From the NCBI RefSeq assembly GCF_035083965.1, contig NC_089727.1, positions 18,402,769 through 18,466,768 of the forward strand: a DNA stretch of 64,000 nucleotides, given 5' to 3'. Position 1 is the first letter of the stretch. Every line of letters begins with the position of its first letter. The notes beneath the pieces are model-generated. The model was not told the DNA's origin, did not search any database, and saw nothing but the letters and a program-made list of their open reading frames with translations. Origin of the DNA: Branchiostoma lanceolatum (Eukaryota; Chordata; Leptocardii; Amphioxiformes; Branchiostomatidae). Below are positions 6,341-63,650 of this stretch, piece after piece. The position numbers were made by a program, and so were the translations under genes.

Positions 6341-9300
6341 TCAGCTCACAGCCAGTTGGACAGGTTTTGCTGTTGTTTGTCCCACATGTCGGGCCCTATA
6401 CCTGTCCATGTAGAACCTGCCATGGCTGGCTGTCCCAAAGTCATTATGGCTGTCCTCTCCAAGGTCATGATGGCTGGGTTCCCCAAGGTCACTATGGCTG
6501 TCTTTTATAAAGTCATCATTGCTGTCCTCTCCAAGGTCAGAATGGTTAATCTCCCCAAGGTCATAATGGCTGACTTTTCTAAAGTCATCTTTGTTGTCCT
6601 CTCCAAGGTCACTGAAGGTCATGGCAGATAAGTTGCAGGGTAGAACTTCAACAGACTCCTTGGGAAAGATAGACCCCTCAGATTTTATATCCTCAATGCA
6701 TGTATGTCTCTCAGTCGGTGAGGGTGATTGTTGAGATGTCTGAATGTCTGGGACATTTTTGTCTATTGCTTGAGTTGAAGGTTGGATGACTTGTGAGGAA
6801 GTCTCTGGTTTGTCTTCAAGTGCAGAAACCATCTTGTGTGATCTCTCCCGAAATCCTGCATCTCCAGTTGATCCTAGATCTAAAGGCAGATACAAAGGAC
6901 GGATTTAGAAGAAAAACGCAATTTTCTCAGATCAAGCAAGTGACAAAGTGAAGACAACATTCTAACATATTAGTCTCTTCAGGTCTGCTTTAGATGTTAC
7001 ATATTTATGGCACAGTGTCAATTGCTCTGAAGAGATCTTGCCACATTAAGTTAACTCCACTTTCTCAACTATACACTACAAAACTGTTGAAGAACCAAAG
7101 CTGGCTGTTTGTTACCATGGCTCTATGTGTCATGGTAGATTTTGGGATCTGGCAGAATTAGCGATTTTAGTGGTAGAAATCGTGATCGGAGTTTCTGTTG
7201 ACCAAGACTGGTAGACTCGCCAATTTTCTGACAGAGATCCTGATCGTGATCTCTCAACAGAGACGTGGATCGCAATCGCTACCAGTGGAATCTCCGAGCC
7301 TGACAGATCTCAATCTTCTTTACCCTGATATACACATGTTTTTCTGTCTCCCTACATACATGTAACTGCCCCCCTCCCACAATTACATTACCCCCCTCCC
7401 CCCTTCTGCATACAGACCTCCCTGTAGGACAGCCAGGTTGTGAGCTGCCTGTGTGTGGCCAGCAGCAGCAGCTGACATGTACAGCTCCACAGCTCGGGTT
7501 AGGTCCCTCTCCACACCCCCTCCCCCACACACATGTACCCCCTACTCCATACCTACCTCCCTGTAGGGCAGCCAGGTTGTGATGAGCTGCCTGTGTGTGG
7601 CCAGCAGCAGCAGCTGACATGTACAGCTCCACAGATCGAGTTAGGTCCCTCTCCACACCCCCTCCCCCACACACATGTACCCCCTACTCCATACCTACCT
7701 CCCTGTAGGGCAGCCAGGTTGTGAGCTGCCTGTGTGTGGCCAGCAGCAGCAGCTGACATGTACAGGTCCACCGCTTGGGTTAGGTCCCTCTCCACACCCC
7801 CTTCTCTACACACACATGTACCCCTTACTCCATACATACCTCCCTGTAGGACAGCCAGGTTGTGAGCTGCCTGTGTGTGACCAGCAGCGGCAGCTGACAT
7901 GTACAGCTCCACAGCTCGGGTTAGGTCCCTCTCCACACCCCAGCCTCGCTCGTAACAAACACCCAGGTGGTACTGAGAACTCTCGTGCTGGACGGAATAA
8001 AGCTGGGTTAGTACTGTACATCTTGAAATGTTTGTGGTGGTTTTATTTTATTACTGCAAAATCATGACACTGCAAAGATGTATTTTGCATTACAACTGTA
8101 CAACAAAATCACTTCTACCGCAAACCTTAAGACTGAGAAAACCTCCTTTACCCCTTACTAACGTAAAATTAAGTTGTGTCAGGACATACCTTCTGCTGTG
8201 CTGCACTGGCAAAGTGTTGGCTAGCTGTGAACATGTCTCTGTGGGGCTCCATGGTCCAGTAAACACCCAGGTAGGACTGGGCCTGCAACAAAACACACCC
8301 AGCCGGGTTAGACTGGGTCTATGAGACAACACACCCAGCTGCAGGTTAGAACGGCTCTATGATGAGAAAACACACCCATGTTAGACTGGGTCTATGAGAC
8401 AACACACCCAGGTTAGACTAGGTATATGGGACAACACACCCAGGTAATACTGGGTCTATAGCACACTAAACCCAGGTCAGAGTGGACTAAGAACACAACA
8501 CACCCATGCAAGGATTAGCCTACAATACATCAAACCCATGCCCAGGTGCATTTAAGACTGGGTCTACCATAACACACCCAGAAAAGAATCACATGCTCAC
8601 CTGTTGCACCCCCTGTGCAGCTGCCTGTTGCAGCAGACCCAGTGCCTTGTGTGTGTCCTGCTGCAGCCCCCCTCCCCCATGTAGGTACAGGGTGGCCAGG
8701 TTGTACTGTGCCCTGCCATGGCCCTGCTCAGCAGACTGTTGGTACAGCTCGGCCGCCTGCAAAACACAACAGTCTTCTCTGTCAGGATAAAACAGGACAT
8801 TTATAGATCAAAAACCCTGATAATGGTAACAATATAGAATCCTGCACACAGATTCACAACACTGCTTTTATACCATACCTTAAAATGATCAAAGGACATC
8901 AAGCTATCATTCTATGATAGTGGACTAAATATATAAAAGGTGGGCTAAGTTTGTTAATTTCTAGGCCTCTTCTGAATCTCCTCCTGGACTATTAACACTC
9001 CAAAGTATAACTGGAAATAAAGGGATATAATTGCTCATTTTGTTTAGATAAGCAACTACAGTAACAGCTATTCAGCTTTTTGTCTCACCTTGCTGAGATC
9101 TCTGTCCACCCCTCGGCCCTGTTCGTAGCAAACCCCCAGGTTGTACTGGGCCTTCGCACTGCCTGCAGCACTGGCAATCCTGTATGGGGCATAGAACATC
9201 AACATTCACACTCGCAATCTAGAAAGGACATGAAACATCAACATTCACACTCGCAATCTAGAAAGGACATGAAGCATCAACATTCACACTTGCAATGTAG

Positions 9301-12300
9301 AAAGGACATGGAACATCAACATTCACACTGATAATCAATCCTACAGGTGACATGGAACATCAATATTCACACACACAATCATAGAGATTTACACTGACAA
9401 TCGTACAAGGGACATGGAAAATCAACATTCACACTCACAATCATAAACATTCACACTGATAATCAATCCTACAGGAGGCATGGAACATCAACATTCACAC
9501 ACACAATTATAAACATTCACACTGATAATCAATCCTACAGGTGGCATGGAACATCAACATTCACACACACACAATCCTACAGGTGGCATGGAACATCAAC
9601 ATTCACACAATTATAACCGTTCACACTCACATTCCTACAGGGGACATGGCACATGAACATTCACACACACAATCATAAACATTCACACTGTCAATCAATC
9701 CTACAGGTGGCATAGAACATCAACATTCACACACACAAGCCTACAGGTGGCATGGAACATCAACATTCACACACACAATAATCAACACTAACACTGACTA
9801 TCATTCCTACAGGTGGCATGGAACATCAACATTCACACACGCAATCATAAACATTCACACTGACAATCATATCCATTCACACCAGCAATCCTACAGGCTA
9901 TATAAGGACTGCAAGGTCATGTATCATGTGGCTTCACAATGTCACTCCAAGGTCATTAGTTACCTGAACATGTCCACAGCGTGCCTGATGTCACCCTCCC
10001 GCGCCAGCTGCAGTCCAATGGCGTGCTGTATCGCTGCCGAACACGACTTTGTGGCAGTCTCAAACTCAGCCAGAGCCTGCTGTAGGAGTGCGTTATGCTG
10101 CAGTCTGTGCTCAGGCAGTGGCTGGGGAGAAACAAGACACAGAAAGAGTTCAGATCCTGCTTTTTTACCAACAAATCAGTCTACAGCTAGATAAAACATA
10201 AAGCTTTTTTCCAAACGTTTCAAACAATATTTTCAGTCTAGCTAACCCTCATCAACGTACATCCTACTTGGGTACATCCCTTTATTCTGATGGCAAAAAC
10301 TGGGAGAACACTTACTATATTAGGAACTACCGGTATAGATTTGACAATTATTTTAATTCGTCACTTTTGAGTACCCTACTGCCAATCAAAATGTAGCAGG
10401 GTAGTTCAAAAACAGTCAATTGCATTCCAAGACTTAAGCTAAGTACAAACGTTGTAAAGAAAGTACATGCACATTAAGTCTTGAAAATTAGACTTTGCAA
10501 CCACAAGGTCATCAAATCACTGACCAGTTTTAATCACATTAAGTAGGTCATGAGTAAGGTGGTATGGGATGACCTTGACTGAGGTGCCGTGACCTTTATA
10601 CAAAAAGGCAAGACTGAACACAGGTCTGTATTTGAAATCACCAGATACGAGATGTAAAAATGTTTTAACTTACTGCTGCTGCAGCTACAGATCGATGCCT
10701 GGTGTGCTCCTCTGTCAGTTCATTGTCACTACTGGGCAGCTCAGAGAGGTGGGAGGGGGGCAGCGAGTTCCTGTCATTGCTGGGCAGTACAGAGTGGTGG
10801 GAGGGGGGCAGGGAGAAGGCAAGTTTGTAGAGGGTGTGCACGAGGCGCCGCCCCTCCCCCTCTCTGCTCACGTCCCAGGACAGATGTCGGCATAGCTGGA
10901 ACCCCAGTAAAATGGCGGAACCCTGTAAGAAACATATTCACAAGGTTATGCCAAGGTCATTTGTTTTGTATAAGAATCACAAAGAAAACCAGCTAGGGAC
11001 ACTGATAGCCAGACAATACCACTGGAAGATGTCATTCCATATGCTGAGGGTGGATCGATCCTGGCTGTCAATCACGATTAGTAATTCAACCAATGAGAGA
11101 ATTGCAATTAGCAGTTTGACCAATGAGAGAGTTTGACCGATGAACACAACAGCGCAACCTCTGTTGAATATTTGCATTTTTGTGTTTTCTATCTTACATT
11201 TCTACATTTTGACAGAGGTGGGCGGGGCTATGGGATCAGTCTATTGCATTCTCATGCTTGCCTAGATGAATTCAGCTTTATATAATTTAAGATATGACTG
11301 AACATTTTTACCAATGCAAAGAGAGCAGCAAGCTTGCAGTCAGTTGTTCTTTTTTTATCATACTAGTAGATGCTGGGATTTCAATTTTATCTTTGGATCC
11401 AAAATCATTGACTTAATATAATGAAGAATGAGACTTACCCAACCAATGACATCAAACAAGCTGTTGATGTCTTTTGTGTCAAAGTTGGACCAGAAGTCTT
11501 GTTTGACCTTTTCCTTGTTCCTGCCATGATTGTGGCCAGTTCCTTCAGAGTGAAGTCTGTACAAAAAAAGCATATTGGCATTAGTGTGGCATTACTGTGG
11601 CATTAGTGTGACATTACAGTGGCATTACTGCAGCATTACTGCTGCAGTTCTAGGTTTTTTTCAAGTTCATCAGTGCTGCATATTTGCTACAAATCAGCAT
11701 GTCCAGTACATTAAATTGTATTTTTTATGGTTTCTTAAATTACTACAATACAAGAAAAGAGCACCAAATATTCCAAAAAACAGGCATTAAACACAGAGAA
11801 TGAGCGTGATCCTTACATCTGCTTGGACTAAGTTAGAGATAAATTTTCCAACTCCTGACCTGACTACAAACGGTCGAGTCCCCACAGTCGTCACCTGCGG
11901 TGACCTCTGCACTGAACTCCCATCATGCTCTCCTTCCTCCAGCCACAGCCCTGGCGACAGCGTCCTGTTGCCATGGTTACCTGCAGCTGAGCTGATCTGC
12001 GGCCGAAGCACTGAAACATTGGAAACATCACAATAAACCTAAACAGAACTTAAAACACTGCTCACACAAAACTGTAAATATATTACTGCCCTATTCATCA
12101 CACCTGGTTTAGAGCTAGCCTGTCCAAGGCCATTTTCAACAGTGTAGAAGATTTGGGTGATGCCACTTGACACTGACTAGACATCCTGTTTTAGTGTTTA
12201 AGAACTTGAATAGATTGACTTCACTTGATTTGTGAGGAGGGTGTTATTTTTATGAATGTGTGCGAAATTAAATGTGACGTTATACATCGTGTATGACCCG

Positions 12301-12781
12301 GCTTTAGATCGAATCGAATACATCCAGTGCCACCACACGATGTCTGACACTGTATGTAGGAGATGGAACAGTGCGAATCAGATTTGTCTATTAGTAAGCA
12401 TGTACAACTACAAGCAACATAAAGGCGAAGCGTAAATTAACATGACGTCATCATGACTGACCGGTATATCATGAAGGGCATGGGAAGTGTTTTATTTTTC
12501 TAATCAATACATAAAATGCTACCCTTTTAGAGACATTCTACGCACTACAGCCGGCATATATAGATCTAGATCAGCTACTGACTGTTGACATTGAAAGAAA
12601 ACATCTATTTGTCTTCAAAACCATACAAAATCGTATGTACCGCCGGCCGGTGAAAAATACAGGCGCCCTACCGGTCAAAAATTATACCGTCGCCAAAACT
12701 AGTTTCAGAGGCATGCCACATCTTCAACACAACAAGTGAACAGTCTTTACCTCGAGGGAGACCTTGTAGGATCCTCCACAT
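6341..12781 (-). CDS. DELE1: DELE1, mitochondrial stress relay protein with Sel1-like repeats
   Basis: In vertebrates DELE1 is cleaved by OMA1 on mitochondrial stress and activates the kinase HRI, starting the integrated stress response. Exons (plus coordinates, read right to left): 12751-12781, 11860-12010, 11439-11556, 10674-10922, 9964-10121, 9089-9179, 8601-8756, 8190-8282, 7840-7987, 6341-6879. Phases agree throughout and give about 577 residues. The start MWRILQGLPR resembles human MWRLPGLLGR, a mitochondrial presequence. Exon 3/4 has SLFDVIGW-GSAILLGFQL, like the human membrane-proximal segment. Exons 6-9 carry Sel1/TPR-like repeats (AKAQYNLGVCYEQGRGVDRDL; SSQYHLGVCYERGWGVERDL). The last exon is acidic, with DLGED repeats not recalled in the human protein. 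The exon 2 donor was chosen because it alone keeps phase (gtcagg at 11859); a better-looking donor at 11814 would not. Confidence 0.9.
6420..6620 (-). repeat. coding tandem repeat in the DELE1 last exon
   Basis: About six imperfect copies of a roughly 33 bp unit (core CCAAGGTCAT on plus) encode SH.DLGED-type acidic repeats near the DELE1 C terminus. The frame is kept across all copies. Confidence 0.75.
7416..7987 (-). repeat. tandem copies of the DELE1 exon 9 / donor region
   Basis: DELE1 exon 9 (7840-7987) encodes a Sel1 repeat and ends at a GTATGT donor. Its 3' part, the donor and about 45 bases of intron are repeated three more times in the following intron. Equivalent points fall at 7416, 7555, 7697 and 7838, spacing 139, 142 and 141. 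The copies keep the SAAAAGHTQAAHNLA coding sense and a GT at the donor position, but lack a good acceptor. Confidence 0.85.
8012..8185. mobile_element. MITE, TACTGTA-end family, truncated copy
   Basis: Starts TACTGTACATCTTGAAATG and resembles the copies at 14730-14927 and 19062-19272 through most of its length. Its right terminus is missing where DELE1 exon 8 begins. It fills nearly all of the 202-base intron between DELE1 exons 8 and 9. Confidence 0.6.
8240..8590. repeat. minisatellite seeded on the DELE1 exon 8 acceptor
   Basis: About nine degenerate copies of a roughly 34 bp unit with core ACACCCAGGTTAGACTGGG. The first copy is the acceptor edge of exon 8 itself (8255-8290), so the array repeats the exon start and its splice acceptor. 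Confidence 0.75.
9174..9905. repeat. minisatellite beginning at the DELE1 exon 6 acceptor
   Basis: Units contain GGAACATCAACATTCACAC together with CAATCCTACAGGTGGCAT. The second motif mirrors the exon 6 acceptor edge (GGCAATC/CTGTATGGGGCAT at 9173-9190). The length is variable, about 40-75 bp, over some 730 bp of intron 5. Confidence 0.75.
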
Positions 12782-13408: not shown

Positions 13409-16094
13409 ATGAGTTCGGTGTCTGAGTTGGTTGGTGATGGCAGGTGTGCACAGCTGCAGCAGGTGGTAGACTGTGCAGCAGGCAGGTTTGTCTGCTTCAC
13501 CAGGTGCACAGCTGCAGCCTGGAGCGTGAGGTGGGACAACAAATTAGCAAACAGAAAAGAGTATTGCAGATTAAAGAGTAATAATAGACAAACTAGTTAA
13601 CATATGCAAGCGAATACATAATGTTTACCTTCACATGAAGTAACAAACTACTGCTCTCAGTCTGTTCACTCAAATACATTCATATACAGTAAATGGAGAC
13701 CAGCCCCTCCAGCTCTGTCCTGCCACTTGCTACATAATGTAATCAAACACCACAGGGTGGTTGCTCCTCATGCTATTGACCAGGTTATTGACCTTATTTG
13801 GAACAGAAGAGGAGGAAGAAATGTAGCAAAAACAATTCCGTCAAGTTAAACATAGATGCCGAGCTATACCTGCATTGTAGAAAAAACATGATATTCTTGA
13901 AGTCTAGGTAATATTATTGTGATTCTTTTAATTTCAGTGTGACAGACGGGGTTGATGTATGGATATGGCAGGCAGGACAGGAAGAACTCGATGCACATGT
14001 GAGTCACTTAAGCTAAACTGATTATAAGTTATTACACATATCTGCATGCATACATACATATGCACACAGGCAGCCGCACATACATCATACACACAAACAA
14101 CCATGCACACATTTTTATGTGCAAATATACTGTGCACGAGTATATTTTTGGGTACCTTAAAATAACAGTCATGAAGACATTTTGTTACAGACCACTGGAG
14201 GTGCATCATGTTTTTGAATGGCCGAGATCTATATCAGAGATCTATATTGACTTGAGCAATTTTTATGAATTTTTGTCTTTTTTTGCAGAGGGACGTTGCT
14301 GAGTTATCCAGTTTTGAAGCATACTTTTCCAGATTCAGGTAATTTCTTCTCCTCGTTATTTATTTGTTTTGTGCTTTGAACTATCTTATCAGTAACCAAG
14401 TTGAAGGCAGTTCTTCAGAATTCTATGCCTAATTTCACCAACAACTCAAAAAGCCATGATCACGTCCTGCAGTAGTTCTAGATCACAGTTTTGTCTTTGA
14501 AATCCTTTATCATTTATGTCTTCCAATCTCCCTTCAGGACAGCATTCCTGGCTGGAGAGGTCAGCATATCAGGGACAGGTCATAGGTTACAGTGCACCCT
14601 AGGAAAGGGCAGTTCAACCTTGACCTACGACCTTTATGAGGCAACAGCCAGTGAGAGGAAAGAGGATCTAAAACATATCTTGTTTCGATTGGCTGATAAA
14701 GTTACAGAGCTGGACCAGAAACTGGCAGGTACTGTAGATCTTGAAAAGTTCACTGTGGTTTTATTTTCATGATTTTTGCGGCTATCTCACACCACAAAAT
14801 CATGACTCTTACAATAAGCATTACCATTGAATTGCTAACTGTATTATAGAATTGTGTTAACTGCAAACTTAAAACTTTTACTTCCCACAGTGAAATTAGG
14901 TTATGACACTGAAAATGAATTACAGTAAGTCCTGAGCCCGGATTGTAACTTTGGTTCCATTGGCTTTTGTTTCCTTCATTATCTATTCTTTGATACACGT
15001 ATGATGCATCATACATCTGTTATTTGTTCTGTATTACTTTTTGATTGACTCAGGTGTTTGTCAAGGTTTTGTTTAAAATGATGTATACCTTTTGTCCAGA
15101 CTCTACCAACCGGCTGGATGCTTTACGGCAGAACCACCCAGAGCGCCAGGTCGGGGCAAAGGGCGGTGCCGGATTCGGTAAGGTCATCTCCATATATGGC
15201 AACAAAACATCAGCCAGTCGTCAAAGTCCATGGATTTAGTTGGAGACACTCATATGTTTATATGTGGCATATAAAATGAAGAATATTGACAATTTCTTGA
15301 AACCCAAACCAGATATTGTCAAACATTTTAACCCTCCTTTGGCCCTACATCATAATTTAAGATAGTAGAAAACTGTACCATGTGTGTCCTGTTCTCTGAC
15401 TTGAAAGGTTAAGTGTGATTGGGTACTTTTATCCATTGGCCAAAATGGTGAGGTTTTACTAAATTTCCAATGTCGTTTGAGCTTTCTTTTCAAAAACAAG
15501 CAAGGCCTCTCCACTGCAAAGTTATGATGTCTCGAATATGCATTTCCTCTATATTGCTGTTGTTCTACAGACTTACTTCAACAGCAAGCTCAATACGCTG
15601 CAAAAACCTCCTTTCTATTCTTATCATGAAATTAATTAAAAATAAATGAATTTACTGTGTTTCCTCTTCCCTCAGATTTGGACATGCAGAGAAACAGAGG
15701 GCCTGCTGCTAAAGTCAGGAGAAAGGAGGGATACAGTATTCTGAACCCTGAAAGTAAAAGGTCAGGAAATTAAAATAGGCAGACTTGTTTTTACTGCTAG
15801 GACAATGTATGATATATAAAAGAAAGAACTAGAAAAATATAACGATCAAAAGGGCTGACTTTGCTTGTATGTGAGTTATATTGTATGTTCTTATGACCAA
15901 GCAGTAGTAAGAATATTCAATAGGGCAAAATTTCCATCCATTGTTTTTCTTTCTTTCTTTCTTTGAGAAGAATTGTAAGAAAATTTTGTATGAGGCATAT
16001 TCAGTGCACTTAATGTTGTTTATTTGTTTGTTTTTATTGCAGGGTGAAGGCCCCTCGAGGAGTACACTTTGACGATGAGGAAGACAGCAGTTAG
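13409..16094 (+). CDS. PAXX: PAXX, Ku-binding non-homologous end-joining factor
   Basis: PAXX is an XRCC4-superfamily scaffold that binds Ku at double-strand breaks and stabilises end joining in the nucleus. Exons: 13409-13530, 13938-13998, 14289-14338, 14538-14728, 15100-15177, 15676-15760, 16043-16094. Phases agree and give about 212 residues, against 204 in human as I recall. The head domain includes VTDGVDVWIW and FSRFRTAFLAGEVSIS, then an XRCC4-like coiled coil (LFRLADKVTELDQKL). The C terminus GYSILNPESKRVKAPRGVHFDDEE fits the conserved Ku-binding tail (human SLINPGFKSKKPAGGVDFDET). For exon 1 the donor GAG/gtggga was chosen over the stronger nearby gtgagg because only it keeps phase. 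The exon 4 donor abuts a MITE. Confidence 0.9.
14730..14927. mobile_element. MITE, TACTGTA-end family, in PAXX intron 4
   Basis: Begins TACTGTAGATC and ends ATTACAGTA, an inverted pair. The interior (GTGGTTTTATTTTCATG) matches the 8012 and 19062 copies. Its first base overlaps the PAXX exon 4 splice donor GTACTG. Confidence 0.6.
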
Positions 16095-17225: not shown

Positions 17226-17390
17226 AGGCTATTGACAGGATCATCCTATCAACAGTGGAAAAATTCTCACTGTTGACAGGATCAACAGTAGCGTTACAAA
17301 CTTATTCCACTGTAGACAGCATGATCCCGTCAGCAGTGCAATTTTTTCTACTGCTGACAGGATCATCCTGTCAGTAGCCACTTCCAAAAT
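17226..17390. repeat. cluster of four short palindromes
   Basis: Four related palindromes built on TGACAGGATCATCCTGTCA occur in succession between PAXX and STARD10. Copies of the flanking CAAAAGTAGTTCACCACCC motif stand at 17180-17205 and 17480-17505 on either side. Confidence 0.6.
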
Positions 17391-17750: not shown

Positions 17751-20700
17751 ATGGACGGGAGGCTGCTAGGAGAAGTGAGAATCGCCGACGACAAGGATTT
17801 CTTGGACTTTAAACAGGCGTGTTTGAACCACGACAACGGCTGGGAGCAGAAGTATAACAAACACGGAACAGTTGTCTACGCCAAACTACAGGATGCGTCT
17901 TCTGTCAAACTCTTAAAGGTACAAAAATAAGAAATTTCCTTCGTTTTCCTTCACAATTTCCATACTGAAATGGGCTTTGCTATTATCAATTATATCGCAA
18001 TAATGCACAAATGCATAATTTAAAAATGAGGGGGCGGGTCGCTCGGTTATGAATATTTGTCTGATGGCGATGTTGTAAAAAAAAAGATTTACATAAACCG
18101 TTATATTTGAATGAAAGATGAACCCAACACGTCAAGTTCACGGCCAAAAGCTCAGGGTTAGGTTTAAAAGAGGCAGACAGGAGTTTCTATTTTCTGCGGG
18201 GGGGGGGGGGGCGTCAGGTGTAACAACCACCTGTTAAATGCGCATGAACAGAGCTTAGGGTTAGGTCCGTCTTAGAAGAATCTTAAAGGTGGTGAATAAA
18301 AGAGAAGACGTTTTTTCATGTAAGATGTATATTAAACCCTTACATTGGTCCAAACACAATATCCGACATTCTAACATAAACATTGGAAATTCAAGGCATG
18401 CGATACCAGCAGTGCTGTCTGGGGTGACCATTGTATTGCAAGGGCCCATTGTCCAACAACCCATCTTGGCATTCATTCAAGAAATGTAGGAAGAGAAATC
18501 AAGGAGACCATCGGTGATAACAAGCTGCTGGGAGGCCCAATATCGAACTTCGCCTTCGTTTTTCCGACCCCTACCCACCTACCAAATATCATAAAGATCT
18601 ATCCACAGCTTCTTAAGTTATGGTGTCCACAAACAAATAAACAAAACGAGTCTCAAAACTAACCACAAATGGCACCGAAAACTTAACCTTCTTGGAGTAA
18701 ATTCATCTGTTTTCTTTAATCCCTGGTTGCAACACATGCATGATATAAAGTATAAACTGATCCCAGCTGTCCATCAAAATAATTCTATCAGCAGTTCAAC
18801 CAATGAGAGCATGTCAATAAAATCTATGTTTTTGTTATGCTCTATGGGATCTCCATTCTATGTATAATTGACTAGGCCCCCAAGGACACTACTATTCCTG
18901 TGTGACAGGTTGATAATTGTGGTTAGACCAGAACTTAGGTCATCCACTTCCACCAGATGTTGCAGGAACAAAAGCCTTTAGGACTTGTGGAGATAGTAGT
19001 TGTAACATCTGTACAGTTATGTCCCTTTGAACAGTGCTCTTACAAGTATGCCTGTTATTATTACTGTAAACGCAGAAATGTTCTCGATGGTTTTATATTC
19101 ACGGTTTTTGTGGTGAACTCTTTACCGCGAACTTAAAACCACTGAGAAAAGCCGTTCCATTGTGACTGTGTTGCTATTATTTTTTCAAACACGAACTCAA
19201 AACCACTGCAAACACTCCATTTTCCCCCAACCGTGAAATTAAATCCCCGCGAACATTTCTGCATTTACGGTACCTTCGGCAAGGAGGCTAACCTCCGACA
19301 GGGGTACTGTTTTTTGTTTTTATGTGTTTGCACCGGAAACTAAAGATCCTTTCGATGCATTTTTATGAATTATGGTATGTGGGTCGCTATTGAGGTCACA
19401 AAGAAACATGGATATTCCAGTCCCCCTAGCAGTATTTTCAGGTAAGGCAGCATTACAGGAAACACCCCTTTGTGAAAGTATTGCGATGTATTCACTTGTG
19501 GGAGGAAGATACAAATTACAATATAGCTGGGAACAGCAAAAGGAACTGGAGGATTACTACCTAATCTATGATGGCAAGTGCTATGGGATTAAGAAATTCA
19601 CTAAAACTCTAAATACAATGTATTTCACGGAAGTATTAGATCTTTAAATTTCTTGTTGTAACAGTTGTGGAACCAAATTTTGGTGTTTATCAAAAGGATT
19701 ATTTTCCAGTGCTGAAAAGCCGTTATTCCTAGGATGATTAATCGTAAGAACAACGTTTCCAAGAGAAATTCAAATGGTTTATTTGTTTGCAGATTTTTTA
19801 CAATTCTGACGTGTGATCTTTCTGACAGGTTTCGGTGACGTACAAAAAAGTTTGTGCCGCCACTTTGTACGATGTTCTTCACGATCCTGACTACAGAAAA
19901 ATGTGGGACCCAAATATGATGGACGCGTATGAAATCTGCCAACTAAACCCTAACAATGATGTAGGCTACTACTCATGTAAGTACCGCCCTAACAATGATG
20001 TAGGCTACTACTCATGTAAGTACCATCCTAACAATATGGTGTGGGCTACTAGTCATGTAAGTACCATCCGAACAATGGTGTAGGCTACTACTCATGTAAT
20101 TAACATCCTAACAATGATGTAGGCTACTACTCATGTAAGTACCGCCCTAACAATGATGTAGGCTACTACTCATGTAAGTACCATCCTAACAACAGTGTAG
20201 GCTACTACTCAGGCAAGTAACATCCTAACAATGGTGTAGGCTACTACTCATGTAAGTACCATCCTTACAATGGTGTAGGCTACTACTCATGTAAGTACCA
20301 TCCTTACAATGGTGTAGGCTACTACTCATGTAAGTACCATCCTAACAACGGTGTAGGCTACTACTCATGTAATTACCATCCTAACAATGATGTAGGCTAC
20401 TACTCATGTAAGTACCATCCTAACAATGATGTAGGATACTACTCATGTAAGTACCACCCTAACAATGGTGTAGGCTACTCACGATCATGTAAGTACTAGT
20501 ACCATCCTAAATATAATGTATGCTACTACTCATGTAATTACCATCCTAACAATGGTGTATGCTACTACTCATGTAAGTACCATCCTAGCAATATGGTGTA
20601 GGCTACTACTCATGTAAGTACCATCCTAACAATGGTGTAGGCTACTACTCATGTAAGTACCATCCTAACAATGGTGTAGGCTACTACTCATGTAAGTACC

Positions 20701-23228
20701 ATCCTAACAACGGTGTAGGCTACTACTCATGTAAGTACCATCCTAACAATGATGTAGGCTACTACTCATGTAAGTAACAATTCCTAACAATGGTGTAGGC
20801 TACTACTCATATAAGTACCATCCTAACAATGATGTAGGCTACTACTCATGTAAGTAACATCCTAACAATGGTGTAGCCGTGTAGGCTACTACTCATGTAA
20901 GTACCATCCTAACAATGATGTAGGCTACTACTCATGTAAGTACCATCCTAACAATTATGTAGGCTATTACTCATGTAAGTACCATCGTCCTAACAATGAT
21001 GTAGGCTACTACTCATGTCATGTAAGTACAGTGATCCTAACAATGGTGTACTGCATGTAAGTACCATCCTAACTACAATGTAGGCTACTACTCATATAAG
21101 TATGAGTACCATCCTAACAACGGTGTAGGCTACTACTCAATATGTAAGTAACATCGATTCCTAACTATGGTGTAGGCTAAGTTACTCATGTAAGTACCGT
21201 CCTAGCAATGGTGTAGGCTACTACTGCAGGTAAGTACTGTCCTAACAGCAATGTAGGTTACTATGTAGTACATAGCTACAAATGTAAAGTGATATGTGTG
21301 TGATCCGTGTAGTGTTGCTTTTGATTCTGCAGGGAGATGTTCCCCTCCGTTAAAGAACCGTGACTTTGTCACTCTAAGATCCTGGCTGGAGACTGGAACA
21401 GAATACATGATCATCAACCATTCTGTCAATCACCAGGTAAGTTACTGTCAATTACAGGGGTTACAATAAAGCTGATTATGCGACTGTCAGTTACTGTTTA
21501 ACTTAAGTTGCTGACGGCTGCATTTCAGTACTGATACTGATAGTAGATGCTAAATTAGCAAATGACATAATGGGTTAGGTAGGTCTTTGTAATTTCTGCT
21601 ACTGACAAAAAAAAGCTGCCCAACATTTGACAACAGGTAAATGTGTAAATGTGTGTGTGTATATTTGTGTGTGAGTGTGTGCATGACTTATGTTATAATA
21701 TTTGTGTGTGAGTCAGTGTCTAGTAAATGTTTGTTTGTGTGAGTGTGTGCATGTGTATATGTTTGCTTGCATGTGTGTGTGTGTGTGTGTGTGTGTACTT
21801 GTGTGCATGTGTCTGTGTGCATGCATGCATGTGTGAACATGCAGCTATAATGACCATGAGTTAAGTACATTATCATTTTTGGCAACCACAGAAAATGTCG
21901 CAAAACAAGGCTAATATATTGGGCATCTCCCTGCTGGCTGTTTGACTGTACATGTATACGTATGTTGACCTTGACTAAAGTACATTGTGGTTTTTGCCCC
22001 CCCCACAGAAAGTGCCACCTAAGAAGGGGTTTGTACGAGGCATCTCCCTGTTGTCGGGATACTTGATACGACCCCTGACCTCCGACAGCTGCCATTTTAC
22101 ATATCTGACACAGATGGACCCTAGAGGTGAGTTTAACGCTCTATTTAGGACAGTTTCATTATTTGTGATTTCACATTGATGTCTTAGTTTACTGTGAGGT
22201 TATGGAGTAAGGGAATAGTGCTGATCTATCTGCATTATAGTCAATCTATGTAAGACATCGGAGCCATATACATGCAGGACTCAACATTCATTTTTGGAAA
22301 TAGGTGTACTGGTCCACCTAAGCTAAAAATTTAGGTGCACGGAAAACAGGTTAACAATGATAGAATAACGTACGTAGTCCACAAGACCTGATCACAAACC
22401 TTTTGGGTCCCTTCATAGGTTTAGTCTGAAAATACTGTATAGCTGAAATTATGAGCAAATGGAATACAACTTATGGTTTTGTAATTTTTCTGTTACTTAA
22501 CTATTATACCTATACAAATATGTAAGGACCTGGTGCACAGTCAAAAATTATGTACACAGCTACTAACTTGGCTTGTTCATATTTCTGCAGGATCCCTGCC
22601 AAAGTGGGTGGTAAACAAAGCAACACAATTCTACGCTCCGAGAGTAAGTTACTTCAGTCTGTTCTTAGCAATGTGTGTGTGTGGGTTTGCATATATGTGT
22701 ATAGTATATTTGTGTGTCACTGTGTGTGTAACTATGTATTTATATATGTGTTGGTGTATAAGTATGTGTGTCTGTTAGTATGTGTGGGTGTATGAACGTG
22801 TTTGCGTGTGTTTCTGCTCAAATATTATTTTCGTAGAGATTTTGTCTCGTAGAAGTTATTGAAGGTTTTTTTCCGGTGTTTAAAGTCCGCAGTCAAAATA
22901 CTGCTGACTACCACAGAAAACACTACAGTAACTGTAAATATTTCAAGATCTAGAGTGAATGTTTTGTACCATCTTGTAGATGATGCAGAAGATCCAGAAA
23001 GCTGCCATGAAGTACCCCGCGTGGAAGTCTCAGCACAAACCATCGTTCAAACCGTGGCTCTACCCGGAACAGATCACCGTCCCCAGGGTCAACTACGACG
23101 ACCTTTCGCCCGTGATCCTCGCGGCCCTCCCAGACTCCAACAGTGACATCATGGAGGAGATGGAAGCTCTCGAAGAAGACTTCAAGGACGAAAACTTCGT
23201 AAAAGATGAAGACACGGAACCAGCATAG
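17751..23228 (+). CDS. STARD10: STARD10-like START-domain phospholipid transfer protein
   Basis: STARD10 (PCTP-like) is a cytosolic lipid carrier that binds phosphatidylcholine and phosphatidylethanolamine in a START fold. Exons: 17751-17918, 19829-19976, 21333-21436, 22009-22126, 22591-22643, 22980-23228. Phases agree and give about 279 residues, against 291 in human as I recall. Segments matching human include [66 protein letters not shown] and [21 protein letters not shown]. The C-terminal tail is acidic ([10 protein letters not shown]), as in human. Exon 2 ends inside the first unit of a splice-donor minisatellite running to about 21260, so several alternative donors are available. Confidence 0.92.
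18180..18700. other. STARD10 intron 1 segment with a G tract and a dispersed-repeat tail
   Basis: A run of 12 G at about 18199-18210. The stretch around 18530-18660 (CCAAATATCATAAAGATC ... AACAAATAAACAAAAC) looks like the end of a dispersed repeat. No exon was found. Confidence 0.35.
19062..19272. mobile_element. MITE, TACTGTA-end family, best-preserved copy
   Basis: The left end TACTGTAAACGCAGAAATG is the inverted match of the right end CATTTCTGCATTTACGGTA. The element is 211 bp, non-coding, and in STARD10 intron 1. TA at both ends is compatible with TA target duplication. Confidence 0.7.
19949..21260 (+). repeat. 39 bp minisatellite made of the STARD10 exon 2 end plus its donor
   Basis: About 30 copies of a 39 bp unit whose parts are GATGTAGGCTACTACTCAT (exon 2 end) and GTAAGTACC (donor). 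The first unit is the real exon 2 edge. Most copies keep the perfect donor TCAT/GTAAGT. Since 39 is divisible by three, the first copies read on in frame as [13 protein letters not shown]. Confidence 0.95.
21640..21835. repeat. TG-rich microsatellite
   Basis: Imperfect (TG)n with GTGTGTGTG runs in STARD10 intron 3. Confidence 0.85.
22660..22815. repeat. TG-rich microsatellite
   Basis: Imperfect (TG)n stretch in STARD10 intron 5, directly after the exon 5 donor. Confidence 0.75.
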
Positions 23229-23389
23229 CCGCTAGTTAACCTAAGTTAGCCTAATTTCTTTTTTCAGAACAATAGTCCTGCCAAGGGCCTTGAAAGCATT
23301 TTAAGAACGATAACAAAAGCAATGAAACGTGTTTAAGTATATCTGACAACTTGGGTCAAGTCTGGCTTGATCTTCCTGTAAGTTTATAT

Positions 23390-23770
23390 CTTCCATATAT
23401 GGAGTTTTTGCCTCTGAGAAACAAGTTATCTTCCATATATGGAGTTCCTGCCTCTGGGTGTGAAGGGTTCCATGTATGGAGTTTTTGCCTCTGAACAACA
23501 AGTTCTTCCATATATGGAGTTTTTGAGAAACAAGGCTTCCATATATGGAGTTTTGATAGAAACAATGCTACCATATATGGAGTTTTGAGAAAAAATGCAT
23601 GTATGGAGTTTTTGAAAGACTACACTTCCATGTATGGAGTTTTGAGAAATACTACTTCTATATATGGAGTTTTGGAAAACAAGGCTTCCATATAAGGAGT
23701 TATGAGAAACAAGCTTCCATATATGGAGCTTTTTTTAGACACAACACTTCCATATATGGAGTTTTTATCT
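23390..23770. repeat. minisatellite carrying CArG boxes
   Basis: Irregular tandem copies of TTCCATATATGGAGTTTT. Seven copies contain CCATATATGG (starting at 23393, 23433, 23508, 23539, 23571, 23717, 23750) and one CCATATAAGG (23688). All eight fit the SRF consensus CC(A/T)6GG. Confidence 0.9.
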
Positions 23771-28379: not shown

Positions 28380-31300
28380 TCAGAACTTTCCCGTCATCAT
28401 CGCAACAAACTCTGAAATCGATCAGCAAACACGGGTTATTGCACTTCCTTCGAATTTACATGGCAGAAGTTTGCCCAAAGGTTTCAGAAATGCTTCAATT
28501 CATAAAATATATTCTTCAGAGCCCTATGTTTGCCCAGGCCAATCGAACCCATTGGTGCCCAGGTAAGATAACTGAACGTTTGGGCCCAGATCTAGAGGTG
28601 CCTAAACGGACCCATGACTGCAAGGACGAACCCGTGGGTTTGCAAATGACCCATGAGTAGGGGTGGGTACCGGTACAGAAAATTCAGGTCCAGGTCCAGA
28701 GGGTCAGGTCTAGGTCCGGACTTGTACCTGATTAAAGTAGTATCGCAGTACATGATATTTTGGAGAGCGAGACACAAGTAAAGGTCTCTGTGAGTCCTAC
28801 AAATTATGTTCGAATTGTATGTTAGAATAATGTGATTATTCTCGGTGCACACTAATGTGCACTCGCCGTCTGTTGACTCATCTACATATGATTAACAGCT
28901 ATTTTTAACGTCTTCGAAAAAGGAAACCACGACTCGTTAAATCTGCTTATTTTGTATTAGACCGGTTATGTGTGACCGCCTGCTGGTAGCCAGGTACTGT
29001 GAATTTTCTAATCGGTCCATAGGCCGGTCCACTGATTTTTTTCTGGACCGTTTTTTTTTTTGGACCGGTCCATAAGAAAATACCGCTTTTGTACCGGTAC
29101 GCGGTACCGGTACCCACCCCTACCCATGATCATGAGTACTCCATTAGACCCAGGGCTGTCTGGATGAACCCACGGTTTTGTAAGTAACCCATGAGCACTC
29201 AAACAGATCCATTAGGAACCCATGGGTTTGAAAGTGACCCAAGGTACTCAAACAGACCCACTACTGCCTGAACAAACCCGGGGGTTTGTAAACAACCCAT
29301 GACTACTCAGATGCACGGCTGTGGGTTTGTAAATGACCCAGGAGTAACTCGAACAGACCCAAGTTTTGTATATTTTACAGGCCGTTTAATTTAGTTGAAC
29401 TGAAATTTTGAACACCCTCTTCCATCCCCGGGTACATTATTTTGTCTCACCGTCGAAGTTGATCTGTCCGTCCCCGTCCGTGTCCACCGCCTCGATCATC
29501 TCATCCACGTCATCCAGGGACATCTCATCGTCAAGGTTCTTCATGATGTCACGAAGTTCCTCCGCACTGTAAAACAACAGTTCAGGCTGTACCAACAACG
29601 TACGTATATGTATATATATACGGTAGAGATTGGAATTCAGGAGAATCTGGAATTCTCCTAGCAGAGATTGGAATTCCAGTCTCTGCTAGGAGAATTCCAG
29701 ATTCTCCTGATTTCTCTTCTGTGACATACACATGTCCATAACCATATCCAGTTAGATAGCCGACTCAGTAACCGATGGACATAGCCTCGACCAGGTTCTT
29801 CATGATGTCCCGAAGTATTTCAGCACCAGCTGTATAACAACAGGTCAGGCTGCACGAACAACTTACATAACGGTTACCATAATCTAATCAGGTACCTAAA
29901 CGAACTACCGGATATCGCCTCACCTAGGTTCTTCATGATGTCGCGAAGTTTCTCCGCACTGTAAAACAACAGGTCAGGCTGTACTATCAACATTCATGAC
30001 TATTACTCAGTTGGGTACCTTCCCGTTCGCTTCACTCACTCGGTGGTTTATTCGGTGCTGGTGGAAGGGCCTGTACGCCCCTTTTCCGGAAAGCGAAGGT
30101 AGCTAATCTAAATTCCAGTGATTCGTAGGGAACGCTGTCTCATTCACGTAATTCATAGTGAAATGCCCAAATATTGCGAAAGTGTATTCATTGATCTAAG
30201 CGTAATACTTAAAGGTTCTTCTGAAGTCAGCATACGGCGGTGTCGGAATTACCATCCTGACCCTGTCCCCTTATTTCATGACCCTTTTCTTCATTCGCCA
30301 GGTAAGATCATGTATCAATGATTAACGCACACGAGAAAGCCGTTTGTATAACCAGATGATAAATGATGATAAAACTGTTGCCATGATAAGTGATTATCCC
30401 ACCTGATAAAACCGTTGCCATGATAAGTGATAATCCCACCTGATAAAACCGTTGCCATGATAAGTGATATCCCACCTGATAAAACCGCTGCCATGATAAG
30501 TGATAATCTCACCTGATAAACCCGTTGCCATGATAAGTGATAATCTCACCTGATAAAACCACTGAAATGATAAGTTATAATCCCACCTAATAAAACCATT
30601 GCCATGATAAATGATAATCCCACCTGATAAAACCGTTGCCATGATAAGTGATAATCCCACCTGATAAAACCGTTGCCATGATAAGTGATAATCCCACCTG
30701 ATAAAACCGTTGCCATGATAAGTGATAATCCCACCTGATAAAACCGTTGCCATGATAAGTGATAAACCCATTCCCACCTGATAAAACATTTTGTCGTGAT
30801 AAGTGATAATCCCATTCCCACCTGATAAAACCGCTGCAATGATAAGTGATAATTCAACCTGATAAAACCGTTGCCATCATAATCATAGCTTGCCGTGATA
30901 AGTGATAATCCCACCTGAAAAAACTGCTGCCATGATAAGTGATAATCTGACCTGATAAAACCGTTGCCATGATAAGTAATAAGTGATAATCCCCGCACCT
31001 GATAAATCCGTTGCCGTCCTTGTCGAAGACCCTGAAGGCCTCGGCGATCTCCTGCTCGCTGCTGTGGGATTCCATTTGCTCAACCATCATGTCCAGGAAC
31101 TCCGGGAAGTCGATCTTGAACTTTCCTGGAACGCACACGCAAAGTTAGAGTGTCTTAGAAGTCCATGTAGGCCTTTCTTCAAGAAACACAAGCTTAGAAT
31201 TCAATCTTGGGTCTTCTTGAACAAAATCCTTAATTGTTCATTAGGGTTCCATGGATCCAATAACGCAAGGAGTTTTCAATCAGGTTGAAACCTCCTTTAA

Positions 31301-33185
31301 GTAACACAGGGTGTAGATTTCCTGACGAACCAACCAGTAAGTGTACGATTACGTTTGACCCAGAGCAGCTATAGGCCCCGCTTATTGTTGAGATATATAT
31401 ATGAATATCAATGAGTGGTTATGATGACACAGAGAGGCAGAATCTGGGTGGGTCCATTCGTAATGCTATGGTTACTAGTCTATTGGAAAAGGGGACCCGC
31501 GCCGGGTAGCTTGTGGGCTTTTTTGCACTTTCGGGCGTGACCCCTAAGTGGCCCCGTGGGACTACCTTTGGGAGCACGGCCGGGCCCCAGCATTTTTTAA
31601 TTCACAGCTAAAATCAACCCGGGACCCGGCCACAAATAAGCTAACCGTAAAAAAAAAAAGATGTACCTACCCCTTTAGTTCTCACCTGCACCTACACCCA
31701 CCAGTCTACCTCCACCAGTTCTCATTTGCGCCTACCTCTACCTGCCCCCGGTTCTTATCCGTACCTATTCCCTTTAGTTCTCACCTGCGCCTATCTCCAC
31801 CTGGTTGATCATGGCGTTGAGCTCTGGCTCGGTGGGATTCTGTCCCAGGGATCTCATGACGGATCCGATCTCCTTTGTTGCGATCAGACCGTCACTGTCC
31901 TTGTCGAAGGCCACAAACGCGTCCTTGATTTCTGGACATAGGACAACATAATTTTCTGCAATGGGTAAACTATAACTCTATTGACTATTGACATAACAAA
32001 AAGAGGCTGTTGGCTGTAAGATCCGTTTCTAACAACAATAACGAGAGTTCGGAGACCTCAAACCTCCATAGAATATATTATGCAAATTAAAGGCCCACAT
32101 TTGAATAATTTATATTCAACTTTGTATATTTACATAGTTGCAACTAATGGGTCAGCATTCAGCAAGTAATTTTCCGAAAATGGTGCGTAAACAAGATAGA
32201 GAGGATTCCGTTGGGGTTCTACTAAACTAGACAGTATTCTTGTGACTTTTAAACAGTTTTATAATCACTCACCCTCGATCTGTTCGTCTGTCAAGTGTTC
32301 GACCTGAGGAAAAACAAAAACAAGTAGACATACGTGGAGGGAGTCAGTCAGTTGTACTCTATATTTTGAAGAAGAGGGTTAGTAAAAGTACACCTCGACG
32401 TTTCGTTTCACGTCTGTCAAGAATGTATATCTGAAACTGTCTATTGTTAATTTACACTGTTTAGTTGAATTTTTATATTTGAAGCTGCGTTCAAACTAAC
32501 AGCACAGTTATACATTTGTCGTAGGTTGCTGTAACTTGACAGAAACAACCACCGACAAGACAGCCTTTTCTGACTAACAAGGCAGCTGCAGTTTCTACGA
32601 CATATGCAAGACTGTCCAAAGACAGTTTGCAATCGTCGTACGACGTATATGACCGGGCCCTTACTCTGTTTTCATCGCAAGCAAACATATAGAGAGCTAG
32701 TGTCCTGTCGCATTCCTGTATGATCATATTCAAGGCTATAACCAACACTCTCACGCCATGCATTCAGCTACTATTGCGAGCTTCGTCACTTGTTCATGCG
32801 TAACATCTACTAACATAATTCCACTAGGGTACATAATTCCGCCACCCTGAAAAGATACGTCCAAACAAATCTCCAAGCCAACGTCCACCAGTTGATACCG
32901 GCACTCCTGTATATCTAAACTGTGCATACCTAGGGATTGCTGCACTAGATATCTCTCAAACCCACTGTTTGCGGATATATTTTACCCGGCGGATTAATGT
33001 TGATGGATGTTAATAGGCATTCTATTGAGTCACTCATGTGTTGTTCAAAAGGTGGTTATACGTTTGTACTTTGCTTATTCTCAAAATATGAACAAGATGC
33101 AATAAAATGCCCTTCTGGTCCAAGCCAGTCGCTGCCATGCCATATTTTATTGCAGGAAGAGTTGAAATAAAAGTTATCTTACCAT
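28380..33185 (-). CDS. calmodulin/troponin-C-like EF-hand protein, 151 residues
   Basis: A small calcium sensor of the calmodulin/troponin C superfamily. Exons (plus coordinates, read right to left): 33183-33185 (ATG only, as in calmodulin genes), 32273-32303, 31785-31931, 30999-31125, 29451-29566, 28380-28411. Phases agree throughout. EF1 ([12 protein letters not shown]), EF3 ([12 protein letters not shown]) and EF4 ([12 protein letters not shown]) are canonical 12-residue loops. EF2 ([14 protein letters not shown]) lacks the usual D-x-D-x-D/N-G and is one residue longer, so it probably does not bind calcium. The C terminus [10 protein letters not shown] resembles calmodulin EFVQMMTAK. Length is near calmodulin's 149 and shorter than vertebrate troponin C. 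It could be a troponin C, a CaVP-like or a calmodulin-like paralogue; the sequence alone does not decide. Confidence 0.9.
28530..29375. repeat. minisatellite of ACCCATG / CAGACCCA units, interrupted by a MITE
   Basis: Loose tandem copies of GACCCATGAGTACTCAAACA-like units lie at 28540-28656 and resume at 29124-29375. They are interrupted by the inverted-repeat element at 28657-29123. All lies in the EF-hand gene's last intron. Confidence 0.65.
28657..29123. mobile_element. MITE with 20 bp perfect terminal inverted repeats
   Basis: The ends TAGGGGTGGGTACCGGTAC and GTACCGGTACCCACCCCTA are exact reverse complements. The element is about 465 bp, non-coding, inserted in a minisatellite with TA at both edges, compatible with a Tc1/mariner-type TA target. 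Confidence 0.8.
29534..29995 (-). repeat. triplicated acceptor edge of EF-hand exon 5
   Basis: The start of exon 5 and its acceptor with polypyrimidine tract (29534-29600) recur at about 29791-29860 and 29927-29995. Each keeps GTTCTTCATGATGTC and the downstream AACAACAGGTCAGGCTG. The extra copies are upstream of the real exon in the minus-strand transcript. Confidence 0.85.
29637..29710. repeat. perfect 31 bp inverted repeat (hairpin)
   Basis: Arms 29637-29667 and 29680-29710 are exact reverse complements with a 12-base loop (TTGGAATTCCAG) that is itself nearly palindromic. It lies in an intron between the duplicated exon 5 edges. Confidence 0.9.
30340..31010 (-). repeat. 37 bp minisatellite made of the EF-hand exon 4 end plus its donor
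   Basis: About 17 copies of a 37 bp unit. On the minus strand the parts are GGCAACGGTTTTATCAG (EF3 loop codons NGF-I) and GTGGGATTATCACTTATC. The real exon edge GGCAACGGATTTATCAG/GTGCGG at 30999 heads the array. Confidence 0.92.
31440..31650. other. GC-rich insertion-like segment in EF-hand intron 3
   Basis: The stretch around 31490-31640 is far more GC-rich than its surroundings (GGGGACCCGCGCCGGG, ACGGCCGGGCCCC). It ends in an A run, which suggests a mobile-element insertion. Termini and family are not resolved. Confidence 0.3.
31670..31805 (-). repeat. three degenerate copies of the EF-hand exon 3 end plus donor
   Basis: The exon 3 edge and donor (plus: TTCTCACCTGCGCCTATC at 31778-31795) recur twice downstream in the intron near 31678-31700 and 31718-31740, with CTCCACC spacers. 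Confidence 0.65.
32310..33180. other. EF-hand gene intron 1, nothing recognised
   Basis: No exon, repeat array or known element was recognised in this intron beyond a possible transposon end near 32640-32670. Confidence 0.4.
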
Positions 33186-39878: not shown

Positions 39879-39911
39879 CGGCTGCTGTATCACTTAAGTA
39901 CTGGGTCTGCA

Positions 39912-56927: not shown

Positions 56928-56960
<33 letters not shown>

Positions 56961-61612: not shown

Positions 61613-63650
61613 TTACACCATCAGTTGTTCGATCTCGTGCACTTCCCTGGGGCAGATTCGGGTCAGGATCTGGGGATCTCCTTCCGTGATCAGCACGTCG
61701 TCCTCGATCCGGATCCCAATCCCACGGAACTCGGGCGGTGCCGACTGGTCGTCTTCCTTAATGTAGATTCCTGTCAATCATGAATGTAGAAATATTTAAG
61801 AAAGAGAATGAACATGAACACAAATTTGTATCATAATGGCTGTAACTAGTTCCAACCTGATTCTACTAAGCCCATCTGCCTGACAGACTAGGTGTATAAA
61901 GACCCACCCAGCTCTATGAAACCCACCTAGAACTATGAAACCCACCCAGGTTTTGAAACTCAACCATATAAATAAAAAAAACACCAAGGTTTGTGAAATC
62001 CACTTAGCTTTTACAGACCTCATTCACCCGACCCCAAACTGGTTCTATAGAGCCCACCTGGGTCTATAAAACCCATCTAGCCCTGCAGAACCCACCCAGC
62101 TCTATGAAACCCACCCAGGTTTTCATAACCCATCCAGATGATCTATATAAAAAACCCACCCAGGTTTATGAAATCCGCTTGGCTCTACAAAACTGACTAA
62201 CCCGACCCCATGGAACCCAACTGGTCCTATAGATTAGATCCCAACGAATGATGAAACCCATCTTGCTCTGTGGAACCCATCCAGCTTTATGATGAAACCC
62301 ACCCGGGTTCTATGAAACCCACCTGGTTCGACTGTGACCACCATGCCAGGCTGTAGTTGGGAGGATCGGGACATGTCCGGCGTGTCATGAACATCCATTC
62401 CGAGGTAGTGGCTGATGTGGTGGGGACAGTACCTCCGGGCTGTCTGTAAGTAAATAACAACAACAACAGGTAAACTTTGGCTGTTTCAAAGTGGGAGCGA
62501 CCTGCAAATGCGTATTACAAGAAAGTATTTCCAATGCATTCTTGCTAATACAAAGTGGTAGATTGGTTAAGCGGGCAAACTCAAACTGAGAGCAAAGCAT
62601 GATGTTTTTTGTTAGCTACATGTAGAAGTGCAATGTGGCTTTGCTACGGCTCCCATATTCAGCCAAGCACACAGGGTCACCCCTGCTATTCTAGTGTGTT
62701 GTGTTTTCTATGTGCAAAAGTTTGATGCCATAACATAAGCTCCCTCAGACACAGGGCTACTGGCTTTACCACCCCATCTGAAATGATGATGCAACTTTTC
62801 CAGTCATGTCCAGGCCCGGGTGCAAACCTGGACTGCCGGTTCCACAGAATCTGAACCAGAGAAGTGCACAGAGAACTAGACCACGCGGACACAACAGAAA
62901 ATGACCACAGTCTGTGATATCTTACCTGAGTGAGCTCGTAGCCCTCCTTGTCCCGGACTATTCCCAGATCTTTCAGTTTCAGCCCGATCAGGTTCAGCAT
63001 GACGGTGTAGATGTGGTCCAGCGAGATCTCAGGACGACAGAGGTTCAGGCACGTCTTCTGGATGCTCAGGACAGCCTCGTACAACTGAACACACAAGGTC
63101 AAGCTCAAGATCGAATACAAGGCCAACACAAGGTCAAACACACTTGTTTCTTGGATCAAACAACCATTATGTTACAGACTGCAGATCATATCTGGAAAGG
63201 GAAGCTAGGCACCACATGCTTCACTTCGGAGTACAATCCCATGAGCAAGAAATATGCCAAGCTTTCCAATGATAAAACAAATAATATGCCAATCATTAAA
63301 AAAACAGACATATGATCAAGGACAATAAGTGAATGTACAGAACATCATTTTGAACTTTAAATCATACATCATTGGAAAACATATTTCGAACCCTTTAAAT
63401 AAAAAAAGTAATAAATATATTTTGGAGATATGATCGAATGAAATTAAGTTTGTCATCTTTCTATGTTAGAGATACCAATTGCAAGGAAGACATATTAAGA
63501 ATAGGAAAACTGAAAACATATATGACCCCCGACCTGTCTCTGAGGCTCCGTGAACTTGCCACTGATTGGCCAGGTCCTGGTGATGTCACACACGTAACCA
63601 TGGTACTCGCAGCCTGCGTCAACAAGAACCAGCTCTCCGCTGTTTATAAC
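61613..63650 (-). CDS. XPNPEP3: XPNPEP3, mitochondrial Xaa-Pro aminopeptidase 3, last four exons
   Basis: A dinuclear-metal peptidase of the M24B family that removes N-terminal residues before proline, in mitochondria and cytosol. Exons in the window (plus coordinates, read right to left): 63534-63650, 62926-63084, 62323-62443, 61613-61770. Phases agree; 184 residues then TAA. Metal ligands are all present: D of LVDAGC, D of DITRTWP, H of [16 protein letters not shown] of [12 protein letters not shown] and E of GIRIEDDV. Matches to human as recalled include [28 protein letters not shown] and MDVHDTPDM. For 62443 the acceptor CAG/ACAGCC was chosen over the one four bases further because only it keeps phase. 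The 5' exons lie beyond the right edge. Confidence 0.93.
61870..62325 (-). repeat. minisatellite seeded on an XPNPEP3 splice donor
   Basis: About 20 irregular copies of CTATGAAACCCACCCAGG-type units fill the intron from the donor of exon 62323-62443. The donor itself, CCAG/GTGGGTTTCATAGA on minus, is the first unit. Confidence 0.75.

Follow-up and report, generated by a model that had tools for sequence, protein, structure and literature searches.

Tandem repeats whose units contain an exon-intron boundary occur at nine sites in four genes within one 64-kb window of the Branchiostoma lanceolatum genome (the window being the whole stretch of DNA analyzed), although the share of exon sequence is tiny at one of them, in XPNPEP3. 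These junction repeats are new cases of the mirages of amphioxus, minisatellite-like tandem duplications at the 5′ and 3′ boundaries of exons with units of 10-160 bases (PMC3087553). They are probably the product of ordinary local tandem duplication, tolerated where the mRNA remains intact and followed by expansion inside the intron. A preliminary description of the window had listed eight of the nine repeats and suggested that the pattern may be novel. The claim of novelty fails, as mirages have been reported for Adh3, globin and troponin C genes and similar repeats for PGBD5 (PMC3087553, PMC3902484; here and below as described in the passages of the cited papers that deal with these repeats).

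Exon edges were taken from spliced gene models, which rely on reading frame and homology rather than mRNA. We modelled DELE1, STARD10, a calmodulin-like EF-hand gene, the last four exons of XPNPEP3 and most of PAXX:

6341..12781, minus strand: DELE1, 10 exons with an open frame of 577 amino acids (aa); exon 2 donor uncertain.
13938..16094, plus strand: PAXX, model without the start, used as control gene (PF15384, E = 1.7e-24, profile from position 33).
17751..23228, plus strand: STARD10, 6 exons (match to 6ser, E = 7.9e-79).
28380..33183, minus strand: calmodulin-like EF-hand gene, 5 exons preceded by a first exon that carries the ATG and ends at 33183.
61613..63650, minus strand: last four exons of XPNPEP3, a gene that extends past the model (match to 5x49, E = 3.4e-77).

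The repeated boundaries appear to be those of real coding exons, as judged from frames and alignments (a slash marks the join). The spliced frames are open in all five models. The match of DELE1 (first 428 aa as query) to human DELE1 (8d9x, E = 1.7e-37, residues 196-396) spans the exon 6 and exon 8 acceptors and stops some two residues short of the exon 9/10 join; the exon 9 donor is therefore supported by the open frame and its GT. STARD10 aligns to 6ser without gaps over the exon 2/3 join (DVGYYS/WRC) and the exon 3/4 join, and XPNPEP3 aligns to 5x49 without gaps over VEPG/IYI. The EF-hand protein aligns to calmodulin without gaps over NGFIS/AEELR and with a one-residue gap next to the exon 2/3 join. 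EF-hand exon numbers used here are one lower than those of the preliminary description; the ATG exon was added afterwards.

A scan of the 52 modelled junctions, in which the 24 bases centered on a junction had to recur at 17 or more of 24 positions within 700 bases, identified eight junctions, exactly the eight described previously and no others. Windows of 30 and 40 bases retained six and seven of the eight, respectively, again with no others. Seven of the eight outscored all 200 intron shuffles in gapped alignments with 40-base queries (exception, the DELE1 exon 6 acceptor), and six passed with exon sequence alone as the query (exceptions, XPNPEP3 and the DELE1 exon 6 acceptor). The share of affected sites, put earlier at about a third, is correct for introns (7/21 in the four genes) and too high for junctions (8/42, 19%). 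PAXX had been described as free of such repeats, and none of its ten modelled junctions passed the window-recurrence scan or the exon-only query; a match at its exon 6 acceptor (p = 0.015, gapped 40-base query) was discarded because it consists of intron bases only and the exon-only query is negative there. The nine junction repeats, including one found in addition to the eight, are:

7399..7941, minus strand: DELE1 exon 9 donor mirage, 142-base unit, 4 copies, Tandem Repeats Finder (TRF) score 922.
8263..8538, minus strand: DELE1 exon 8 acceptor mirage, 32-base unit, 8 aligned copies, AG kept in 7/8.
9169..9893, minus strand: DELE1 exon 6 acceptor mirage, compound units with decoy acceptors such as CTGTAG/GATTG.
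19949..21263, plus strand: STARD10 exon 2 donor mirage, 39-base unit, 32 aligned copies, GT kept in 29/32.
21851..22070, plus strand: STARD10 exon 4 acceptor, a degenerate two-copy duplication of about 110 bases over the junction; the ninth case, absent from the preliminary description.
29518..29980, minus strand: EF-hand exon 4 acceptor (formerly exon 5), upstream copies of the acceptor with about 49 exon bases.
30367..31018, minus strand: EF-hand exon 3 donor mirage (formerly exon 4), 37-base unit, 17 aligned copies.
31663..31801, minus strand: EF-hand exon 2 donor (formerly exon 3), degenerate copies of the exon end plus GTGAGAACTAAAGGG, found by alignment.
61895..62330, minus strand: donor array of XPNPEP3 exon 62443-62323, degenerate 19-base unit, 13 aligned copies, GT kept in 9/13.

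Each unit of the DELE1 exon 9 array holds about 100 bases of the exon end, the GT donor and the start of the intron. The intron repeats the last 100 exon bases and continues with GT (score 190, null maximum 25), and the TRF interval takes in 102 exon bases. The copies are 92-98% alike over their exon-derived part, and the pattern of likeness is mixed: the distal copy is closest to the exon over the exon-derived part (98%) and least close over the intron-derived part (69%), and the two inner copies are identical over the latter. At the exon 8 acceptor the array extends 20 bases into the exon under permissive TRF settings, and the gapped 40-base query outscores 200/200 shuffles. The exon 6 acceptor gives p = 0.055 in the gapped 40-base test (200 intron shuffles), and its exon sequence alone finds no match in the intron. 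Upstream, a pattern search lists 11 units, each with a terminal YAG and then GATTG-like sequence, that are in register with the real acceptor ...GTTGATGTTCTATGCCCCATACAG/GATTGCCAGTG, and permissive TRF extends 11 bases into the exon. We count this acceptor as a junction repeat because its units are in phase and TRF enters the exon.

Other repeats were observed in DELE1. The last exon contains a 24-base coding repeat (6422-6611, minus strand). An array with an 11-base unit (11576-11641) ends 19 bases from the exon 3 acceptor and was rejected as a junction repeat, its unit having no exon sequence. The second exon 9 copy (7699-7839, minus strand) gives 47 in-frame aa similar to a Sel1-type stretch, and use of its donor would yield a longer protein without a stop (insert of 141). 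An extra Sel1 repeat was nevertheless rejected: the frame is open, but the Pfam count is unchanged (3 and 3; 103.2 to 108.9 bits).

In STARD10 the final 29 bases of exon 2 are found again exactly in the intron, and the TRF interval takes in 28 exon bases. An 86-base exact repeat, made of the last 28 exon 2 bases and 58 intron bases, occurs again 158 bases downstream; because it includes the exon 2 end, it indicates that the array exchanges with the exon copy. The array presents 29 successive GTAAGT/GTAATT sites, and only the first 2, real site included, would leave the frame open. At the exon 4 acceptor the copies 21851-21960 and 21966-22070 align with a score of 77 (maximum of 1000 single-base shuffles, 36), with p = 0.010 for the gapped 40-base query and p = 0.005 for the exon-only query; the standard TRF run over the window did not report this duplication.

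For the EF-hand exon 3 donor, GT is kept in 15/16 readable copies; the TRF interval (30367-30982) ends 16 bases short of the exon, and the junction copy is visible only by alignment. The exon 2 donor repeat is likewise not reported by the standard TRF run, and its gapped 40-base query outscores 200/200 shuffles. Upstream of the exon 4 acceptor, the copy at 29958 scores 58 (null maximum 24), and another is visible by eye near 29848. A weak 24-base cluster (31929-31975, permissive TRF score 62) lies 3 bases into the acceptor side of exon 2 and was not counted as junctional, these 3 exon bases being under the limit of 4.

The XPNPEP3 array is the weakest case for an exon origin of the unit. The permissive TRF interval reaches 62323 and so takes in 1 exon base; the gapped 40-base query outscores 200/200 shuffles with a match that includes 2 exon bases; about 6 exon bases are visible by eye in the next copy; and the exon-only query found no passing match in the intron. 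The earlier statement that arrays start exactly at the exon edge holds for this array (within 1 base) and not for most others, which enter the exon by 102, 28, 20 or 11 bases or, at EF-hand exon 3, stop 16 bases short of it. A separate array with a 12-base unit (63091-63142) ends 6 bases from an XPNPEP3 exon acceptor and was rejected as a junction repeat, as its unit is without exon sequence.

Exon edges match their own introns far more often than other introns. We compared edges of up to 100 bases (54 edges, with the added ATG exon included) with their own and with non-adjacent introns. At a score of at least 26, an own-intron match was found for 6/54 edges, versus 4/1316 non-adjacent pairs (Fisher P = 5e-07); at a score of 24 there were 7 own-intron and 10 non-adjacent matches, and at a score of 30, 4 and 0. 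Where the exon share is long, the direction is from exon to array, because the units carry residues that the proteins need, including peptides common to solved relatives (calmodulin DGNGFIS, STARD10 DVGYYS). The copies themselves are without sign of coding constraint, exon-derived and intron-derived columns being about equally alike in five of the six arrays, as expected if the copies no longer code. Many copies keep AG or GT signals, as in mirages: the splice dinucleotide is intact in 73/83 aligned copies of six arrays (4/4 at DELE1 exon 9, 9/10 at DELE1 exon 6; the aligned regions include the real junctions), which is about as often as other columns agree. Decoys that would leave the frame open number 1/3 at DELE1 exon 9 and 1/15 at EF-hand exon 3 (insert of 84). 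Use of the outermost splice site would be implied if the proteins are made.

The arrays are probably explained as follows. A short stretch spanning an exon-intron junction would be duplicated in tandem by ordinary slippage or misrepair. The exon-proximal copy would retain the real splice site, leaving the mRNA unchanged and the duplication tolerated, while a like event within coding sequence would usually be purged by selection. The array could then grow, shrink and homogenize in the intron by unequal exchange or slippage. The extra copies would bring decoy splice sites that have to be ignored, presumably as exon definition favors the exon-proximal site. The arrays, their phase with the junctions, an exon source where the exon share is long and the lack of signs of coding constraint in the copies are observed; how the mutations arose, the filtering by selection and correct splicing are what we infer. 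Earlier reported cases, unstable in length and with RT-PCR products that were normal, also support this account (PMC3087553). Among the causes proposed in the preliminary description, tolerance of repeats that keep a splice site fits best, and nothing that we found speaks positively for junction-directed slippage or repair, for R-loops or for splicing-linked breakage.

The main alternative is that germ-line breaks, R-loops, pausing or misrepair preferentially at exon-intron junctions seed the arrays, in keeping with the fact that donors and acceptors are both affected; we consider this unlikely. It had been argued that chance placement would not favor junctions in this way, and such an excess was not established. 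By base coverage there is none: 5-8 of the 52 junctions lie in repeats, depending on threshold, versus 25-30% of interior intron positions, a figure inflated by expanded arrays. We also used a founder null, in which each array begins as one duplicated unit that is placed at random and survives only if the mRNA is intact. With ten hand-picked arrays, 6 are junctional versus 2.32 expected when the array is subtracted from the intron (P = 0.0063), and versus 0.94 expected with present intron lengths (P = 5.5e-05); without XPNPEP3, 5/10 gives P = 0.04. With 25 permissive clusters, 6 are junctional versus 3.69 expected (P = 0.13), and P becomes 0.53 when only the 4 with plain TRF overlap are counted and 0.29 for the 5 without XPNPEP3. 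The P value varies because it depends on the use of present or pre-array intron length and on the list of arrays. In addition, the window was picked for this pattern after it had been read. A junction excess over chance in this window is possible.

The two lists were built as follows. The ten arrays are hand-chosen standard TRF rows within introns of the five models, with rows merged by eye for 9195-9890, 21642-21819, 30367-30982 and 61902-62137; left out were 6422-6611, 10724-10815, 17232-17374, 23389-23765, 25379-25569, 26728-27207 and the rows from 33438 to 60212. For four of the six junctional arrays (8306-8506, 9195-9890, 30367-30982, 61902-62137) TRF stops short of the junction, and these were counted by alignment. 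The 25-cluster null used hand-entered unit and intron lengths, with each cluster subtracted alone, a 70-base floor and periods under 10 dropped. Neither null includes the EF-hand exon 2 donor, the EF-hand exon 4 acceptor or the STARD10 exon 4 acceptor, which only the junction-directed searches detected. A version that required at least 7 bases on each side (P = 9.9e-05) was discarded, as it lowers the expectation yet retains XPNPEP3, which by the tools has fewer exon bases.

Several observations weigh against tolerated local duplication as the full account. The full ten-array list gives an excess under the founder null with either intron length, and the six top-scoring of the 25 intron clusters are all junctional, a result not expected from simple tolerance except where large arrays just take up most of a short intron. 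In XPNPEP3 the exon-side columns are less alike than the others (0.80 vs 0.95), and this array may simply lie in the intron and extend up to the donor. Use of the exon-proximal copy in splicing is, moreover, deduced from the sequence. A bolder proposal, that lancelet junctions are true hotspots of minisatellite birth through a mutational bias tied to transcription or splicing, with junction-born arrays in a sizeable share of introns and a spliceosome that routinely ignores long runs of near-identical decoys, seems to us slightly more doubtful even than junction-targeted mutation.

It is improbable that the repeated splice sites are retained for a function, as redundant splice sites or as a source of isoforms (STARD10 with 13 additional aa; DELE1 with 47, a second Sel1-like stretch). 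A second-copy donor would keep the frame open in STARD10 (insert of 39) as in DELE1, and so would the one EF-hand decoy, but the frame would be kept by only 2/29 STARD10 sites, real site included, and by the single DELE1 and EF-hand decoys given above. Furthermore, the added DELE1 copy leaves the Sel1 count at 3, and conservation at the splice dinucleotides does not exceed that of the other columns.

Slightly less probable again is an origin of the arrays within introns, followed by their extension to the exon edge or its conversion. Participation of the STARD10 exon copy in turnover, seen in its 86-base exact repeat, and an XPNPEP3 unit nearly without exon sequence would fit such an origin, but the STARD10, EF-hand and DELE1 exon 9 units hold residues common to solved relatives, unexpected if the arrays were intron-born. 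Spurious tandem copies from collapsed or misjoined haplotypes are very improbable: an aberrantly assembled mirage was reported in a draft genome (PMC3087553), but substitutions and small indels distinguish the copies here, and the PGBD5 repeats were confirmed by new data (PMC3902484).

Elsewhere in the window, a 114-base unit (a multiple of three) is repeated about 22 times along an open frame with one stop near 54500 (54072-56568, plus strand), a coding-type minisatellite adjoining a leucine-rich-repeat open reading frame. An 884-aa open frame with a reverse-transcriptase domain (Pfam RVT_1; 43147-45801, plus strand) apparently belongs to a non-LTR (long terminal repeat) retrotransposon, and a long one-piece frame encodes a 7-transmembrane receptor (Pfam 7tm_1; 38358-39893, minus strand).

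Nine junction repeats in four genes of a single 64-kb window suggest that mirages are common. The arrays are natural tests of how the spliceosome chooses among near-identical sites, as in the run of 29 at STARD10 exon 2, and they bear on intron lengthening and on the possible gain of in-frame protein repeats. The 2010 globin paper raised mirages as "a more general phenomenon" as a possibility only, and its authors called the mechanism unclear (PMC3087553). A genome-wide count of tandem-repeat density has been published (PMC2632668); no genome-wide test of junction placement was among the matches listed in our literature search, which had most subscription journals outside its reach.

Mirages have been described in the globin genes BflGb6 and BflGb9 and, as cited there, in Adh3 and other loci; Adh3 data and globin RT-PCR suggest regular splicing despite mirages, and the copy number of the Adh3 mirage varies between haplotypes and somatically (PMC3087553). 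A 2008 paper mentions copies of whole exons or parts of exons in VCBP3 introns, some of them including splice sites (PMC2632668), and in 2013, imperfect repeats of 60 and 108 bases abutting or overlapping splice sites were reported in lancelet PGBD5, with troponin C cited (PMC3902484). The repeats described here share with the globin and Adh3 mirages the duplication of both donor and acceptor boundaries and the many copies with splice signals, and the homogenization of the inner DELE1 copies resembles that of the globin mirages (PMC3087553). They differ in the genes affected and in size, STARD10 having 32 aligned copies versus 3 and 6 units in BflGb6; the globin mirages are backed by RT-PCR and haplotype data, whereas the repeats here are known from one sequence (PMC3087553). 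The PGBD5 repeats also lie at splice sites, in 2 to 7 copies, fewer than in STARD10 or at EF-hand exon 3 (PMC3902484). Intron gain by tandem genomic duplication, as in potato RdRp, likewise copies splice-site sequence in tandem, but a new intron results there, whereas here existing introns grow and no new intron is inferred (PMC4974935).

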